From positions 1 to 37,650 of the forward strand of contig JANXZX010000128.1 of NCBI GenBank assembly GCA_025355325.1: DNA of 37,650 nucleotides, in the 5' to 3' direction. Source of the DNA: Geobacteraceae bacterium (GTDB lineage Bacteria; Desulfobacterota; Desulfuromonadia; Geobacterales; Pseudopelobacteraceae). Within the stretch, counting starts at the first letter, position 1, and every line of letters begins with the position of its first letter. The position numbers and the translations under genes were made by a program. Shown piece by piece: positions 3,621-31,042 of the stretch. The notes beneath the pieces are model-generated. The model had not been told where the DNA came from. It did not search any database and worked only from the letters and a program-made list of their open reading frames with translations.

Positions 3621-3928
3621 GTGTCTTCTCCTTTTTTTGAGTGATGGTAATGAGGCGCTTTCAACCGCTTTAAACACACCTAATGTGCTTGATAAACTTT
3701 TATTTATCTCATTCATTGCGATTAATCAAGCTTTTTTTTAATTAGCAGTTTATTTTTTACAATAACAAATTCACAACGTTTTCCGGTTATATGTCATTTA
3801 GTGATTTAGAACCTGCACGTAGCGGTTGAAATTATTCTTTTCTCGGGATACTCTTGGCGCACACTGTCGCTCGTAAGTCATCAGACATATGTAACCGTAA
3901 CTCATTGAACCTAAAATCGGCAGTTCAT

Positions 3929-4065
3929 GAACCACAGAGCAACTGAGCAACAGAGGAATAAAACAGTTACATCAACAACAGGCATAACCAAAATGGTGAG
4001 TTATCATTTCTGGTTTTAACCTGAATTCTTCTTTTTTGCTCAGTTGCTCAGTTGCTCTGTGTTTC
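3929..4065. repeat. Long inverted repeat with unpaired centre
   Basis: The 19-bp arm CACAGAGCAACTGAGCAAC (3933-3951) is repeated as an exact reverse complement at 4043-4061. Pairing continues imperfectly inward for about 15 more bases, leaving a loop of about 60 bases. It fills most of the 528-bp gap between the PilZ and LysM genes and carries no open frame. Arms built from CACAGAG/CTGAGCAAC units look like dispersed intergenic repeats, but no second copy occurs in this window. The rest of the gap (3621-3928) is AT-rich and must hold the divergent promoters; I see no confident boxes. Confidence 0.7.
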
Positions 4066-4148
4066 AAATGCTTTGTTTAGGTTGAATGGCTTTGAATAAC
4101 ATGAAAACGGCAGGGATTTCCGACGAGGGTGATCAAGGAGCAGGGGCA

Positions 4149-15082: not shown

Positions 15083-15486
15083 GGGGGTGTAAAGGTTTCG
15101 ACAGGCGAAGATAAGTACTGATTGCGCTGGGAGGATGGTGGTTGGCCTCTAGAATAATCCACTACACAATAAATGCAAACAATACAACTGCTGCAGACAA
15201 TTACGCCTTTGCGGGTGCAATTGCTGCTTAGTACCAGCCTTAGATTCTTCGGAATCTAAGCGAGCTAGAGGGTAGACTTGATTCCCTGTGTAACCCTTCG
15301 GCTGTCAAAAAGAAGTAATTGTAATGGGACGGCGAGGATGGTCCGATATTCGTCGTATTTAGGAATCGGTTCTTGGTGCCGTGAGTGATGGCTTACCTTG
15401 AACTTAAACCCGTAATCAATCTATCAGCGTAGATGTTAGTATTGAAGAGCGTTTGGACCAGGGTTCGACTCCCTGCACCTCCACCA
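15083..15486 (+). ncRNA. ssrA: Transfer-messenger RNA (tmRNA)
   Basis: Rescues stalled ribosomes by acting first as alanyl-tRNA and then as mRNA. The 5' end GGGGGTG (15083-15089) pairs with CACCTCC before the encoded ACCA (15483-15486), forming the acceptor stem with the family's G-U at position 3. The T-arm GGGTTCGACTCCC is at 15460-15473. The resume codon is GCA at 15175, and the tag reads ANNTTAADNYAFAGAIAA followed by TAG at 15229-15231. The tag ends AIAA, a conservative variant of the usual ALAA protease signal. The single-piece gene is about 404 nt. Confidence 0.95.
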
Positions 15487-21733: not shown

Positions 21734-21888
21734 GACAGTGACTCCTTTCTCGTCCAAATGGATATTAGTCAGTGTATTTAATTTTACCACTGACCAAACA
21801 GCTTACAACTGTTTACAATATAAATTTCAGTTATATAAATGAAACATCCACAAATCTTCAGAGCAAATAGTGGGTTATGTTTCTTTTC

Positions 21889-21915
21889 TAAAAAAAAAGC
21901 AGACATTTCGCCTGC
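21889..21915 (-). terminator. Rho-independent terminator of small-ORF transcript A
   Basis: On the minus strand GCAGGC-GAAAT-GTCTGC forms a 6-bp stem (one G-U) followed by nine T. It lies about 165 bp after the small-ORF stop. The repeat copy at 28743-28764 has a similar hairpin and T-run. Confidence 0.75.
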
Positions 21916-22077
21916 AAATAGTGCCAGAAGCCAAAAGACATGCCAGTAAAATCAATTTTGAAATGACAGTGCGGGAGGTATAACAGGGAGAAATTTGAAG
22001 ATTATGTGGGAAATGCCTCGACAAATAATGTCTTTGGGTAGCGGCTTGCCAAGCCTGCAATAGTCACAGAGACGTTG

Positions 22078-22269
22078 TCATATATATCCTTGACTATTGT
22101 AGCAGATATCGGAATTCAGTCTTGAGCACCCTTGCCGAATATACGCGGATTCTCTTTGCATTTCGACAACCCAATAAAAACTGTCATAGCCAAGTATGAT
22201 TGCCACTGGCGTATCCAATGAGAATGCAAAAAGCTGAGCTGACGAGTAGAATTGAAATTTTGCGTACAT
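22078..22269 (-). CDS. Small conserved protein of unknown function, copy A
   Basis: A 63-residue ORF beginning MYAKFQFYSSAQLFAFSLDT and ending ICYNSQGYI. I do not recognise a named family; it is aromatic and hydrophobic in the first half, has no obvious membrane helix or signal peptide, and contains an FYWVVE segment. Its reality rests on comparison with the copy at 28914-29093: in codons 1-36 ten codons differ, eight of them synonymous third-base changes and two replacements (A23T, Y28H). GAGG stands 9 bases before the ATG. A sigma-54-type promoter, a 29-nt invariant leader and a downstream terminator frame the gene as a monocistronic unit. From codon 37 the two copies differ more, and an alternative frame also stays similar. 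Confidence 0.75.
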   Translation of the reverse strand: MYAKFQFYSSAQLFAFSLDTPVAIILGYDSFYWVVEMQRESAYIRQGCSRLNSDICYNSQGYI

Positions 22270-22277
22270 GGTTTTAT

Positions 22278-22306
22278 GCCTCGTTTCTGCCTTAGCTGGC
22301 GGATGA
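22278..22306 (-). promoter_or_regulatory. Invariant 29-nt leader of small ORF A
   Basis: The 29 bases at 22278-22306 are identical to 29101-29129, while flanking non-coding sequence has diverged. They lie in the predicted 5' untranslated region and include the GAGG ribosome binding site. Short GCC/GGC complementarity could form a small hairpin, but no known riboswitch motif is seen. Confidence 0.6.
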
Positions 22307-22325
22307 AATTTCTTATAATTGATAA

Positions 22326-22341
22326 AGCATAAGCTGTGCCA
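22326..22341 (-). promoter_or_regulatory. Sigma-54 (-24/-12) promoter of small ORF A
   Basis: On the minus strand TGGCACAGCTTATGCT has the GG-N10-GC spacing of RpoN promoters and a perfect TGGCAC -24 element. The -12 half is ATGCT rather than TTGCA. The equivalent site in copy B differs at one base. It lies 57 bp upstream of the ATG. Confidence 0.7.
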
Positions 22342-22390
22342 TATTGTATTATTCTGCAATAATAGGATGTTATGAAATAAGGGTATTTTT

Positions 22391-22440
22391 TTGACATTAC
22401 GGTACCGATGTGTTGACAAATATTAGGCATATTTTTGACA
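22391..22440. promoter_or_regulatory. Three TTGACA boxes at exact 22-bp spacing (copy A)
   Basis: TTGACA occurs at 22391, 22413 and 22435, a 22-bp period (two helical turns). Copy B has the same three positions with the middle box TTGGCA. The boxes lie 50-100 bp upstream of the sigma-54 promoter, where enhancer-binding activators normally bind. On the minus strand they read TGTCAA, resembling half-sites of OmpR/PhoB-type regulators. Confidence 0.6.
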
Positions 22441-22480
22441 AATAAGTGAAATAAGAGTGATGGAACAATTACATAAACTG

Positions 22481-22506: not shown

Positions 22507-22811
22507 TGTGTTTATTAATCAGGCTTTAAAGCTTGAATATTTGAACAGCGGGAAACTGTAGCTGGGAAGTAGGTTTTGCACTATCAAAAGATGGACAATA
22601 ATAGCCAAGAGCAAGAATATTAATCATTTTAAAAGTATTTTCCATTTAGTGGACCTTGCCTATCTTCTATGCGGTGGTAGAATGATTCATATTGGGTGCA
22701 TTCCTCTAAATATATCTTTGATCGTGAACATTTTGCATCGCTGGTGCATCCAGTTTCATAGTAGAAGGCTGACGGCCTTTAGTTATCAATACAGAAAAAA
22801 GGAGAAGCGTG

Positions 22812-24062
22812 ATGAAAAAAAATATCCTGGTTGCAGTCTGTTTGTTATTAGCAATAGCCACGGCTTCCTCTGCCGCTAATGTGGCAGAGACGTTCTCAAT
22901 TTCACCTATGATAGGGGGCATTTCTTTTGAAGGCAAACAACACCTGGAAACAAATCCTGTCTATGGATTACGCCTTGGCTACAATTTCACCAAAGAGTTA
23001 GGTGTTGAGGCTTTGTTTGATTATGCCCACACTGAGCCGACTCTTACAGGCGGCAATGTTGATTTCTATCGTTATGGCGGTGAGTTACTTTATCACTTCC
23101 TCCCTGACAATAAATTTGTACCTTACATTGCTGCCGGATATGCTGCAGCCAGTTTCAATGGTTCCGTTCCACTCAGTAATTCAAACTTTACAAGAGGTGC
23201 GTTTGACTATGGTCTAGGTGCGAAATTTTTTCTCACAGATAAGATCGCTTTGCGCGGCGATATCCGACACCTTGTATATCACTTTGATGGGACCCAACAA
23301 GCAATAGAGTACATGGCGGGACTTTATATTCCATTTGGCGGCGCAAAACCGGTCGTTAAAGCTATCGAGTCGGCACAAGCGCCAATGCCGGTAGTTGTGC
23401 CGGCACTGGTCGTTGCCCCACAACCGGCGGTTCCGGCAGCCAATTTAACAATTTCTAAGCCTTCAATCACCAAAGGTGAACCGGCAACCCTGACTTGGAC
23501 TTCTCAAAACGCGTCAGCTTGCGACATTCAGCCCAATATTGGCAAAGTTCAGCCTCAGGGTTCACTGGCATTAACTCCTTTGGACTCGACCACCTATACC
23601 TTGACTTGTAACGGAGAAGGGGGTACGGCAAAAAAATCGGCAAATATAATTGTGCAAAAACCGGTGCCAGTTGTTGTTGTCCCGCCAGCGGAGGTTCCAG
23701 TCGCAAAACTCTGCAGTCCGACAGTAATAAACATTCAGTTTGACACCAATAAATCAGCTATCAAGCCCCAGTTCCACGGTGAATTAAAAAAACTTGCCGA
23801 TTTCCTCATTGAATTCCCAGAAGCAAAAGGAGAAATTGAAGGTCACACAGATAATGTAGGTGCCAAGGAGGCCAACATAAAACTATCTCAGCATCGTGCC
23901 GAAAGCGTTCGCAATTACTTGGTCAAGACTTTTGGCATTGCCCCCGAACGTATTAGCGCTAAAGGGTACGGACCTGCCAAACCGGTAGCAGATAACAAGA
24001 CTAAAGAAGGCAAGCTGCAGAATCGTCGCGTTGAAGCCAATTTTACCTGTGGCAACCAATAA
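22812..24062 (+). CDS. OmpA-family outer membrane protein with Ig-like domain
   Basis: Outer-membrane protein of 416 residues. A signal peptide (MKKNILVAVCLLLAIATASS) precedes an eight-stranded-type OmpA barrel of about 165 residues (GLRLGYNFTKELGVEALFDYAHTE in part, KFFLTDKIALRGDIRHL). A proline/valine-rich linker and an Ig-like segment (ISKPSITKGEPATLTWTS to TYTLTCNGEG) follow. The C-terminal OmpA peptidoglycan-binding domain has IQFDTNKSAIKPQFHGEL, GHTDNVGAKEANIKLSQHRA and RISAKGYGPAKPVADNKT. The ATG at 22812 is chosen (GGAG upstream). It is paralogous to the gene at 29416 and lies directly ahead of the porin-cytochrome operon on the same strand, though separated by a hairpin. Confidence 0.9.
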   Translation: MKKNILVAVCLLLAIATASSAANVAETFSISPMIGGISFEGKQHLETNPVYGLRLGYNFTKELGVEALFDYAHTEPTLTGGNVDFYRYGGELLYHFLPDNKFVPYIAAGYAAASFNGSVPLSNSNFTRGAFDYGLGAKFFLTDKIALRGDIRHLVYHFDGTQQAIEYMAGLYIPFGGAKPVVKAIESAQAPMPVVVPALVVAPQPAVPAANLTISKPSITKGEPATLTWTSQNASACDIQPNIGKVQPQGSLALTPLDSTTYTLTCNGEGGTAKKSANIIVQKPVPVVVVPPAEVPVAKLCSPTVINIQFDTNKSAIKPQFHGELKKLADFLIEFPEAKGEIEGHTDNVGAKEANIKLSQHRAESVRNYLVKTFGIAPERISAKGYGPAKPVADNKTKEGKLQNRRVEANFTCGNQ

Positions 24063-28252: not shown

Positions 28253-28477
28253 CTAAATATTACTTTGTACTTGGTTGCGTCCGTCATCTTTGGCCCGATA
28301 CAGGGCAGCATCGGCACGTGATATTACAGTTTCGATACTGTCGTCATCGTGTAGTTGGGCAACCCCAACGCTGGTGGTGATAAATATTTCCTGTGCTTCG
28401 GTACTGAACATCATCTCTGCAACTGTTAGTCGTAGCCGCTCAGCCAGTTTGATGACTGGAACAATCCCGTTTACTTC
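28253..28477 (-). pseudogene. Truncated GGDEF (diguanylate cyclase) fragment
   Basis: A 74-codon frame without a start (preceded by TAA at 28478-28480) encodes the C-terminal third of a GGDEF domain: KLAERLRLTVAE, SVGVAQLHDDDSIETVI, then RADAALYRAKDDGRNQV and stop. The SxGxA and ADxALYxAKxxGRN motifs are unmistakable. The GG(D/E)EF catalytic half is missing, so it cannot make c-di-GMP. It ends just before the start of repeat copy B, suggesting that the duplication or an associated rearrangement cut the gene. Confidence 0.8.
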
Positions 28478-28742
28478 TTAAACTTGATTTTGCCATGTCT
28501 GCGCTTGCTCAAATTATTCTCGTCATTCTTGCAGTGCGGCTTCACATTCTCGTCAGTAACACCTATCTATGGAATTCGTATCCACTATTCAGGGAGGCTA
28601 TATGCAATAATGGCATTTACTCCGTATATTTAGCTTTACCACTGACCAGACTACTTGCAACTGATTTACAAAATTAATTTCGATTGTATGTATGGCCTGT
28701 CCGTACGCCTGAAGAACCAAGAGCAGATATAGTTTTTTCTGT

Positions 28743-28764
28743 AAAAAACAGTCTTTTAGCCTGT
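28743..28764 (-). terminator. Probable terminator of small-ORF transcript B
   Basis: On the minus strand ACAGGC-TAAAA-GACTGT with a central mismatch is followed by TTTTT. It corresponds in position to the stronger hairpin of copy A. Confidence 0.5.
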
Positions 28765-28913
28765 AAATAAATTTTGAAATGGCAGTGAGGTAAAGATACA
28801 AGAAGGAAGATTTGAAGATTTTTTGAGAGGGGTATCAGCGGATTATTGACTTTGGACAGCGGTTTATCAAGCCTGCTATAGCCTCTTTGACTGACGTAGC
28901 AACGACTCTATTC

Positions 28914-29093
28914 TTAACAATTGAAGCAGATGCCGGAATACAGTCTTGAGCAACCTTGCCGAATAAAAGTAGGCTCACTATTAACCTCAACTACCCAATA
29001 AAAACTATCATGGCCAAGTATGATTGTCACTGGCGTATCCAAAGAGAATGCAAAAAGCTGGGCTGATGAATAGAATTGAAATTTTGCGTACAT
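28914..29093 (-). CDS. Small conserved protein of unknown function, copy B
   Basis: A 59-residue ORF (MYAKFQFYSSAQLFAFSLDT, ending GICFNC) paralogous to 22078-22269. The first 36 residues differ at two positions only, although ten codons differ, so selection on the protein is evident. The C-terminal third is less conserved (VNSEPTFIRQGCSRLYS against MQRESAYIRQGCSRLNS) and the stop is four codons earlier. The ribosome binding site, invariant leader and sigma-54 promoter are shared with copy A. It is downstream of the second OmpA gene on the same strand but separated by its terminator. Function unknown. Confidence 0.75.
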   Translation of the reverse strand: MYAKFQFYSSAQLFAFSLDTPVTIILGHDSFYWVVEVNSEPTFIRQGCSRLYSGICFNC

Positions 29094-29100
29094 GGCTTAA

Positions 29101-29129
29101 GCCTCGTTTCTGCCTTAGCTGGCGGATGA
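29101..29129 (-). promoter_or_regulatory. Invariant 29-nt leader of small ORF B
   Basis: Identical to 22278-22306 over 29 bases; includes the GAGG ribosome binding site of the small ORF. Confidence 0.6.
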
Positions 29130-29148
29130 TACTTCTTGTAAATCATGA

Positions 29149-29164
29149 AGCATAAGATGTGCCA
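29149..29164 (-). promoter_or_regulatory. Sigma-54 (-24/-12) promoter of small ORF B
   Basis: On the minus strand TGGCACATCTTATGCT, GG-N10-GC spacing, one base different from copy A. It is 56 bp upstream of the ATG. Confidence 0.7.
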
Positions 29165-29214
29165 CATTGATTTATGTAAGGATAACGGCATATTAAGAAA
29201 TGATTACAACTTTT

Positions 29215-29264
29215 TTGACATTAAGAAATCGGTGTTTTGGCAAATATAAGGCATAATTTTGACA
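29215..29264. promoter_or_regulatory. Three TTGACA-like boxes at 22-bp spacing (copy B)
   Basis: TTGACA at 29215, TTGGCA at 29237 and TTGACA at 29259 keep the 22-bp period of copy A and stand 51-100 bp upstream of the promoter. Confidence 0.6.
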
Positions 29265-29343
29265 AATCTGTAAGGATAGCTGAAAACGTAATACCGCTTG
29301 ATCGTCAAAAACAACTGAAAATCATTTGCCTTACAAAATATGA

Positions 29344-29415: not shown

Positions 29416-30624
29416 TTATTCACACGTAAAGTTGGCCTCAATGCGACGATTCTTAGCCTTGCCCTTTGCGGTTTTATTGTCAGCTACCGGTTTGCTTGGT
29501 CCATAGCCTTTAGCGGTAATTCTATCGGGAGCAATTCCGAAATTGTCGGTCAGATATTTCTTGATGCTGTCCGCCCTGCGCTGGGAAAGCTTCTGGTTTA
29601 ACTCTTTGCCGCCGACATTATCAGTGTGACCGGAAATCTCACCTTTAGCCTTCGGGTATTCCTTCAGAAAATTTCCAAGCACTTTGAGCTCCGGCTCGTA
29701 ATTTGCTTTAATGGCGTCTTTTCCGGAATCGAACTGGATCGCAATTACTGCCGGTTTACTGCAATACTTTTCAGCTGCCACGACGGATGCCGCAGAAGCC
29801 GCCGGTACGACTACAGCAACCGGTGCGGGTGGAGGAGGCACCGGACAGCCATCTTTTTCAACTGCCACACCTGCCGGAGTATTCGGGCACTTGTCGAGAT
29901 AATCAGCTACGCCATCCTTGTCGGAATCAACGGGGCAGCCATACTGATCAACGGCAACGCCGGCAGGTGTATCCGGACATCTATCGGTTGCATCGGGCAC
30001 ACCATCACGGTCACTGTCCTTAGGTGGAGCTGGAATGACCACTGGAGGGGGTGGTTCAACTGCTTTGGCAACCGGTGGAGGCGGTACAGGCTTCGTAGCC
30101 GGTTTTGTCCCTCCAAAAGGAAAATGCAAACCAATAAGACCTTCAATATTATTGTAGGTTTTGTCATAACTGTAGATCAGGTGCCGAACATCCGCACGAA
30201 ACGCAAAATAGTCGTTTACAAAGAATTTTGCACCGACTCCGTAATCATACACGCCCTTGACTATACTGTTGCCGGTGTCAAACTGAACTCCGCCAAACCC
30301 TGCTGCCAGATAGGGAACAAAAGAACTGTCCGGCATGAAATGGTAGAGAAACTGACCGCCATACCGGTACATGTCAAGATTGGTTGAAGTACTTTCAATG
30401 TCAGTCTTTACATAGTCAAACACCCCTTCAAATCCTATGCGCTTGGTAATGTTATACCCTGCTCTTGCTCCATACATGAGCCTATCGGCCAGTCCCTGAG
30501 AATCCTGGTAGCCGTACAATCCCATGACCGGCGAGAAGGAGAAGCTCCCTGCCCGGTTCGCTGCGGAAGCGGTTGATGCTGCCGCACATAAACTTAACGC
30601 CACAACAACTAATGTCTTTTTCAT
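29416..30624 (-). CDS. OmpA-family outer membrane protein with thrombospondin type 3 repeats
   Basis: Outer-membrane protein of 402 residues, paralogous to the gene at 22812. A signal peptide (MKKTLVVVALSLCAAASTASA) is followed by an OmpA barrel (GARAGYNITKRIGFEGVFDY, KFFVNDYFAFRADVRHLIYS). A proline-rich linker leads to two calcium-binding TSP3 repeats (DSDRDGVPDATDRCPDTPAG and DSDKDGVADYLDKCPNTPAG). The C-terminal peptidoglycan-binding domain has IAIQFDSGKDAIKANYEPEL, GHTDNVGGKELNQKLSQRRA and RITAKGYGPSKPVADNKTAK. The ATG at 30624 follows AAGGAAA; an upstream start adds 14 residues. Where the paralogue has an Ig-like insert, this one has TSP3 repeats. Confidence 0.92.
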   Translation of the reverse strand: MKKTLVVVALSLCAAASTASAANRAGSFSFSPVMGLYGYQDSQGLADRLMYGARAGYNITKRIGFEGVFDYVKTDIESTSTNLDMYRYGGQFLYHFMPDSSFVPYLAAGFGGVQFDTGNSIVKGVYDYGVGAKFFVNDYFAFRADVRHLIYSYDKTYNNIEGLIGLHFPFGGTKPATKPVPPPPVAKAVEPPPPVVIPAPPKDSDRDGVPDATDRCPDTPAGVAVDQYGCPVDSDKDGVADYLDKCPNTPAGVAVEKDGCPVPPPPAPVAVVVPAASAASVVAAEKYCSKPAVIAIQFDSGKDAIKANYEPELKVLGNFLKEYPKAKGEISGHTDNVGGKELNQKLSQRRADSIKKYLTDNFGIAPDRITAKGYGPSKPVADNKTAKGKAKNRRIEANFTCE

Positions 30625-31042
30625 ACGGATTTCCTTTCTTGATGTAATTTTTCCCACCATATACAAAATATTTTTTAAAACACAAAGAAGACCGCATTTA
30701 CATTATTCAGCCAGTCCTTGATTCAACTGTCCAACCTGGATTTACTGATGGTGGGCTTTTAGTTTATCATGAGAAAAGTCTACCACAGGGATAATCAGAG
30801 TCAAGGTAGGCCAACTGAAATAAAAATTGACTCAAATTAAATGTAGCCGCAAATGTAACAGGCTATTACAGACGCAGATTACATTGCCGATGACGTACTT
30901 CATAAACAAACAAGTTTAAAAGAAGCGTAATGCTGCTCAGGTATAAATTTTTAAGCTTGAAAATAAACAGGCCTCCGGTTCTGAGCTTTCGTAATGTCAG
31001 CTTTGGCCGGTCGATCTGTATCGACAAGCCTCTGGTTCAGAT
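30625..31042. other. Intergenic region without recognisable gene
   Basis: 418 bp between the second OmpA gene and the alcohol dehydrogenase stop. It must hold the OmpA promoter, but no confident boxes are seen. A short hairpin GTCGAT-CTGT-ATCGAC (31010-31025) may help end the dehydrogenase transcript; there is no T-run. Confidence 0.5.

Follow-up and report, generated by a model that had tools for sequence, protein, structure and literature searches.

A stretch of 37,650 nucleotides from a Geobacteraceae genome, here called the window, carries the same short unit twice, which raises the question of what this unit encodes and how it is controlled. The initial annotation saw in it the best candidate for a self-contained, undescribed system. 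Comparison with related genomes gives a different picture: a paralogous gene with a conserved address exists elsewhere, also in the same genome (G000:C239:11562), and the two copies, A and B, have diverged from it. The copies probably represent an undescribed Geobacterales family of ∼55-residue proteins under flagellar-type sigma-54 control, acting as a small motility regulator or adaptor. Judged from its sequence, the unit is best read as the gene of a small protein that putatively belongs to the sigma-54 regulon of the flagellum.

Organization of the Duplicated Unit

Copies A and B lie on the minus strand as direct repeats, 6.8 kb apart. In each, TTTGTCA-like boxes set at intervals are followed by a TGGCAC-containing promoter of the GG-N10-GC form, a leader, and an open reading frame (ORF). 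The duplication described at first is confirmed, but it reaches further than 22078-22440 and 28914-29264. The ungapped direct repeats D1 to D5, with 78 to 84% identity, link 21757-22443 (copy A, ∼0.69 kb) with 28609-29267 (copy B, ∼0.66 kb), both segments being given without strand.

The leader, previously called invariant, comprises 28 nucleotides that are identical in copy A (22278-22305, minus strand) and, by sequence comparison, copy B (29101-29128, minus strand), and by eye it contains a likely ribosome-binding site. This identity is peculiar to the pair, since the upstream regions of the canonical genes differ. A terminator had been assigned to both copies but was found for copy A only, where a hairpin scan shows a terminator-like hairpin followed by a T run at 21899-21915 (minus strand), beyond the span first described; the same scan shows no such hairpin at the corresponding position downstream of copy B.

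Several other features surround the two copies. An OmpA-type gene lies near each of them (22809-24062, plus strand, and 29416-30666, minus strand); their products share 67% identity over ∼116 C-terminal residues, the assignment coming from a Pfam scan of the first one. Downstream of copy B, a 53-codon remnant (28256-28414, minus strand) matches only the C-terminal end of the GGDEF diguanylate cyclase domain (E value of 3e-8). An inverted repeat, GTCAGTG...CACTGAC, is visible by eye at 21768-21794, between the end of copy A and an MscS-type gene; it belongs to the outer part of the duplication and is broken in copy B.

Reading Frames and Coding Selection

The ORF of copy A (22078-22269, minus strand) encodes 63 amino acids beginning with MYAKFQFYSSAQLFAFSLDTPVAIILG and matches the family profile with an E value of 1.3e-29. 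That of copy B (28914-29093, minus strand) encodes 59 amino acids and matches with an E value of 8.2e-29. Both lengths are counted in codons from ATG. The frame of copy A stays open for 51 codons further upstream, and a longer version starting at TTG is listed; the ATG is favored because the canonical genes support it.

A recount of the differences between A and B in codons 1 to 36 agrees with the 8 synonymous changes out of 10 reported before (dN of 0.024 and dS of 0.487). Codons 37 to 59 show 12 differences, 2 of them synonymous, and the C-terminal ends are unlike. That a protein is selected for, as the initial annotation had argued from the pair alone, is borne out by the canonical genes, for which the median dN/dS is 0.15, far from 1, over the 167 of 630 pairs with unsaturated dS. 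Homologues beyond the window's genome are found as well: they are present in 40 further genomes, which excludes a chance ORF.

Distribution of the Protein Family

A profile search finds family members in 41 genomes, out of 141 for the order and 277 for the class, the window's own genome included in each count. All but one of these 41 belong to the same bacterial family as the window. The exception, G100, has a weak match to a distant homologue (L109, 6104-6238, plus strand), which is the sole match in the order outside that bacterial family; the promoter pattern is absent from the 250 nucleotides examined upstream of it. In a DNA search of 98 genomes, own included, the alignments cover mostly the first ∼36 codons, and the translated matches recur as MYAKFPFYSVAQMYALSLNTPVAIMLG.D.LYWVVD... 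The 37 aligned family sequences share 19 invariant columns. The 35 named loci used for comparison come from Oryzomonas japonica and from metagenome genomes of the Geobacter type.

Copies A and B share 56% identity with the canonical copy of their own genome, which lies on another contig. Together with one copy from G020 (L108), they form a separate paralogue clade with support values of 99 and 99, in a tree built on few columns with many unresolved forks and a bootstrap that had not settled. A far paralogue is found in G037 (L107, 6209-6370, minus strand), upstream of a transglycosylase (SLT) gene, a CheW gene, and a large gene that by eye resembles a chemoreceptor gene. It shows no convincing sigma-54 promoter, the one pattern match lying inside a coding-looking stretch. 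An origin as a phage or plasmid gene was rejected: none of the five stretches of viral contigs that match the pattern codes for a relative, and a tblastn search of plasmids and phages found no match.

Canonical genes share a typical neighborhood. Among the 35 named loci, some of which are cut by contig ends, the gene is flanked on one side by an HD-domain gene that diverges from it (31 loci) and on the other by an EAL-HDOD gene that converges with it (24 loci), one member of each having been checked with Pfam. Past the HD gene, in the same orientation, follow genes that by eye resemble pheA, tyrA, and aroA. The HD and EAL-HDOD neighbors tentatively suggest a relation to c-di-GMP-type signaling.

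Promoter and Operators

The GG-N10-GC sigma-54 promoter reported for the unit is found in copy A (TGGCACAGCTTATGC; 22327-22341, minus strand) and in copy B (TGGCACATCTTATGC; 29150-29164, minus strand), and it is kept in the canonical genes. Upstream regions were compared for the 35 named loci, the canonical copy of the window's genome, and the two window copies; of these 38 regions, 36 contain the strict form TGG[CT]A-N7-TGC, and the remaining 2 retain GG-N10-GC. The promoter of the Oryzomonas japonica locus, L079, has AGGCAT in place of TGGCAT. The distance from TGG to the start codon varies between 58 and 86 nucleotides among canonical genes. The promoters correspond to the RpoN consensus of Geobacter sulfurreducens, TTGGCACGGTTTTTGCT (PMC2725144), with respect to TTGGCA[C/T] and [A/T]TGC at equal spacing in most copies. 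They differ in the gene that they control, which outside the window's bacterial family is found only as the weak match in G100.

Among the 34 canonical genes whose promoter has the strict form, 32 carry two GTCA-N6-TGAC operators upstream of it, 52 to 55 and 94 to 99 nucleotides from the TGG of the -24 element, at most 2 mismatches out of 8 being accepted per site. At random positions in the same loci, an operator-like site appears in 6 to 7% of cases per site. The two operators are spaced 42 to 44 nucleotides apart in most genes. The exceptions are L063, which has the distal operator only, and L074, in which two strong sites are shifted upstream by ∼10 nucleotides, roughly one helix turn. The 35 named loci together span 506 kb and contain exact GTCA-N6-TGAC 39 times; 14 of these occurrences fall at the two operator places. 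Scores are less telling. Against AT-rich control segments, from which the genes' own upstream regions are excluded, 14 of the 36 canonical regions score above the 95% level and 10 above the 99% level, and ∼8% of the control segments score as high as many canonical operator sites. Because the score distribution is lumpy, probably owing to an AT filter that favors a few loci, the argument rests on position and counts. Within the own genome, TGTCA-N6-TGACA with at most 1 mismatch is hardly enriched, with 136 matches versus 117 for the reversed pattern.

Copy A has both operators within 2 mismatches. Its proximal operator, GTCAAAAAAATACC (22382-22395, minus strand; 2 of 8 mismatches), lies 54 nucleotides upstream of TGG, and its distal operator, GTCAAAAATATGCC (22426-22439, minus strand; 1 of 8 mismatches), lies 98 nucleotides upstream. 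Copy B retains only the distal one, GTCAAAATTATGCC (29250-29263, minus strand; 1 of 8 mismatches), 99 nucleotides from TGG; the proximal site, GTCAAAAAAGTTGT (29206-29219, minus strand), is degenerate with 3 of 8 mismatches at 55 nucleotides. The boxes described earlier are indeed 22 nucleotides apart, but elsewhere the conserved unit is the pair of GTCA-N6-TGAC sites. The noted boxes are the left halves of the two operators and one extra half-box between them, TTTGTCA in copy A (22414-22420, minus strand) and TTTGCCA in copy B, which has no fixed counterpart in the canonical genes. In agreement with the initial annotation, a sigma-54 promoter served by an enhancer-binding activator is very likely. 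By eye, a stretch similar to ATAAC-N5-TGTATT recurs between the proximal site and the promoter of canonical genes (e.g., L071 and L072) and is also found in the flgB promoter of G002; it might be the site of a bending protein.

An alternative is that both copies have lost most of their function and are decaying versions of the canonical gene. The degraded proximal site and terminator of copy B, the 10 nonsynonymous differences out of 12 in codons 37 to 59 with their unlike C-terminal ends, and the fact that only one tree row from another genome joins the A/B clade could all be read in this way. Purifying selection on codons 1 to 36 and the retention of promoter and distal operator at equal distance in both copies argue against decay, which is considered unlikely.

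Predicted Structure and Search for Relatives

AlphaFold2 models have a mean pLDDT of 87.6 for copy B and 89.4 for a canonical member, and both show the predicted order strand-helix-strand-strand-helix. Neither a signal peptide nor a membrane helix was noticed by eye, and the product is presumably cytosolic. The statement that no named family is known for the protein agrees with the database searches. Pfam and NCBIfam give no usable match for 37 members (best E values of 0.014 and 0.021, respectively), PADLOC gives no match for the same 37 members, and in PHROGs, searched with three proteins, the best E value is 0.11, with no fit. A search of solved structures by sequence reaches a best E value of 0.36, and no description of such a protein appeared among the open-licence papers listed by the literature searches.

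Structure comparison of both models reveals no convincing relative by Foldseek or VIA-align. Foldseek yields no match at an E value of ≤0.001 for both models against the PDB or for the copy B model against BFVD. The best VIA-align Z value is 5.6, for human PrimPol, with 55 to 59 aligned residues and an rmsd of 2.4 to 3.5; rows for FlhA and MecA/YpbH lie at Z values of 2 to 3.1, with FlhA at 2.2 to 2.4, and all Z values here are in the range that the tool calls common.

Kinship with the ParB/sulfiredoxin-like domain was considered but is not claimed. By eye, the secondary-structure order is alike, as is an ungapped register PV.I...YWVVD...G, but the GERR motif is absent from the family. In an hhalign comparison with 28 ParB domains, the probability is 0.1 and the score of 7.9 falls below all eight shuffles (8.4 to 12.3) and the reversed control (11.9), although the alignment does show the expected register. 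ParB/Srx chains are absent among the structure rows listed, which proves nothing either way.

Link of the Operators to Flagellar Genes

Sites of the GTCA-N6-TGAC type are known from flagellar regulators. For DVU2894, a FlrA/FleQ-like regulator, the motif yGTCA-N6-TGACr was predicted, and the FlrA region of Vibrio cholerae contains GTCA-N6-TGGC (PMC4641369). The FleQ box of Pseudomonas aeruginosa is given as GTCaNTAAAtTGAC (cited in PMC6120874), and boxes of 14 bp that contain GTCAAT and ATTGAC are described for the same regulator (PMC10723142); the FleQ consensus is reported as unreliable genome-wide in Pseudomonas fluorescens F113 (PMC6120874). In Geobacter, FgrM is a sigma-54 activator needed for flagella (PMC8844916).

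Within the window's bacterial family, the motif is linked to flagellar genes. Exact GTCA-N6-TGAC is found within 260 nucleotides upstream of flgB in 13 of 27 parsed regions (30 loci given), and several of these sites form a tandem with a 3-nucleotide gap. The tandem GTCA-N6-TGAC-N3-GTCA-N6-TGAC, with at most 1 mismatch, is present in 47 of 76 genomes of the bacterial family and in none of the 10 genomes without an over-cutoff flgB; a control with the pattern reversed matches a single genome. There are 58 tandem sites, 39 of them within 800 nucleotides upstream of flgB. A further 16 lie within 8 kb of weaker FlgB-model matches, hand-picked among the matches listed, and 3 were not placed. Other genes of the rod type, flgF and flgG for example, would account for these weaker matches. 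A pattern of one site plus promoter has matches in 53 of the 76 genomes, versus at least 9 for the reversed pattern; 13 matches are canonical promoters by their place, and most others appear by eye to be chance-like matches inside genes. The flgB-flgC promoter of G002 carries sites at 53 and 87 nucleotides from TGG, the proximal one being placed as in the canonical genes. The likeness extends to the motif and not to the full arrangement, as the tandem at flgB has a 3-nucleotide gap, whereas the boxes at the small-protein gene are ∼43 nucleotides apart.

The small-protein gene also co-occurs with these features, as judged by Fisher tests, which ignore relatedness and include some incomplete genomes. 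For the gene and the tandem operator, 33 of the 76 genomes have both, 7 the gene only, 14 the operator only, and 22 neither (P = 1.3e-4); in the own genus, the corresponding numbers are 22, 3, 8, and 6 (P = 0.047). For the gene and over-cutoff flgB, 38 genomes have both, 2 the gene only, 28 flgB only, and 8 neither (P = 0.04), with 24, 1, 8, and 6 in the own genus (P = 0.005). The gene occurs without any flgB match in G057 and with only weak ones in G037. Since flgB is present without the gene in 28 of the 76 genomes, the gene is not needed for flagella. The pattern says that it accompanies flagellar control of this kind yet is dispensable for having flagella.

With respect to the activator, the FleQ N-terminal domain (PF06490) has weak matches in 32 of the 76 genomes, 27 of them over the cutoff; the activator may be of the FleQ, FlrA, or FgrM type. 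The unit shares with the regulons of the FleQ/FlrA (DVU2894-type) regulators and of Geobacter FgrM a sigma-54 promoter, upstream GTCA-N6-TGAC boxes, a motif linked to flagellar operons, and c-di-GMP-type genes, here adjoining the canonical gene. It is unlike them in its target, an undescribed 55-amino-acid protein canonically encoded beside housekeeping genes. Given the flagellar-type operators of its promoter, the unit seems to belong, as an outlier, to a regulon that is already known.

The protein could also be part of the flagellar structure or of its export machinery: the same operators would fit such a role, as would the weak FlhA rows of the structure comparison. It is nevertheless rather improbable that the protein is a component of this kind and not a regulator, as the structure matches are at noise level and the gene is found in just 38 of 66 genomes with flgB.

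Other sigma-54 activators recognize related sequences. The NifA consensus is TGT-N10-ACA, which TGTCA-N6-TGACA also spells, and the PilR site of P. aeruginosa consists of tandem TGTC boxes, which the tandem TGTC half-boxes of A and B resemble. Control by NifA or PilR, with the protein serving nitrogen fixation or pili, is nonetheless quite improbable. Among the matches listed, 55 of the 58 tandem sites have flgB or an FlgB-like gene nearby; the tandem is missing from genomes without a confident flgB, and many canonical sites retain GTCA...TGAC but lose the outer T and A. That the transcript is a regulatory RNA, with or without a peptide, as the identical leader and the conserved 3′ patches between A and B might suggest, is highly improbable: an RNA element was dismissed on the Rfam result, in which only a tmRNA at 15083-15486 exceeds the gathering score and the matches near copy A are at chance level, the leader folds no better than shuffled sequences (z values of -0.27 and -0.87), and the canonical genes retain the protein but not the leader.

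Proposed Mechanism

The following mechanism is proposed for a small protein under such flagellar sigma-54 control. Each gene would be transcribed from its own sigma-54 promoter. A flagellar-type activator with a FleQ/FlrA-like site may bind the GTCA-N6-TGAC operators ∼54 and ∼97 nucleotides upstream of the -24 element, contact the sigma-54 polymerase, and open the promoter along with those of the flagellar operons, as the anatomy of the region and the general sigma-54 mechanism suggest. The product, a compact β-α-β-β-α domain by prediction, would work by protein-protein contact within the motility program, probably as a regulator or adaptor; its partners are perhaps the neighboring HD and EAL-HDOD (c-di-GMP-type) proteins, which is a guess. 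Copies A and B would provide two further doses near the OmpA-like genes, and their diverged C-terminal ends may indicate partly different partners or decay under way. A bolder version is a doubtful but possible extension: a new class of adaptors that ties the motility activator to HD/EAL-HDOD signaling in iron reducers, and that the window's genome has expanded by two further copies, each with flagellar-type enhancers of its own.

Proteins this short easily escape annotation. If the proposed reading is true, a conserved protein of the flagellar program has stayed unnamed in the relatives of Geobacter, and the two-box operator predicts further members of the regulon. Expression of flagella leads to thicker anode biofilms in G. 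sulfurreducens mutants (PMC8844916), and a motility regulator there would accordingly matter in practice.

Elsewhere in the window, the tmRNA gene on the plus strand is matched by Rfam model RF00023 with 142 bits, and a long inverted repeat spans 3928-4066, with 35-nucleotide arms that are 89% complementary and 69 nucleotides apart.
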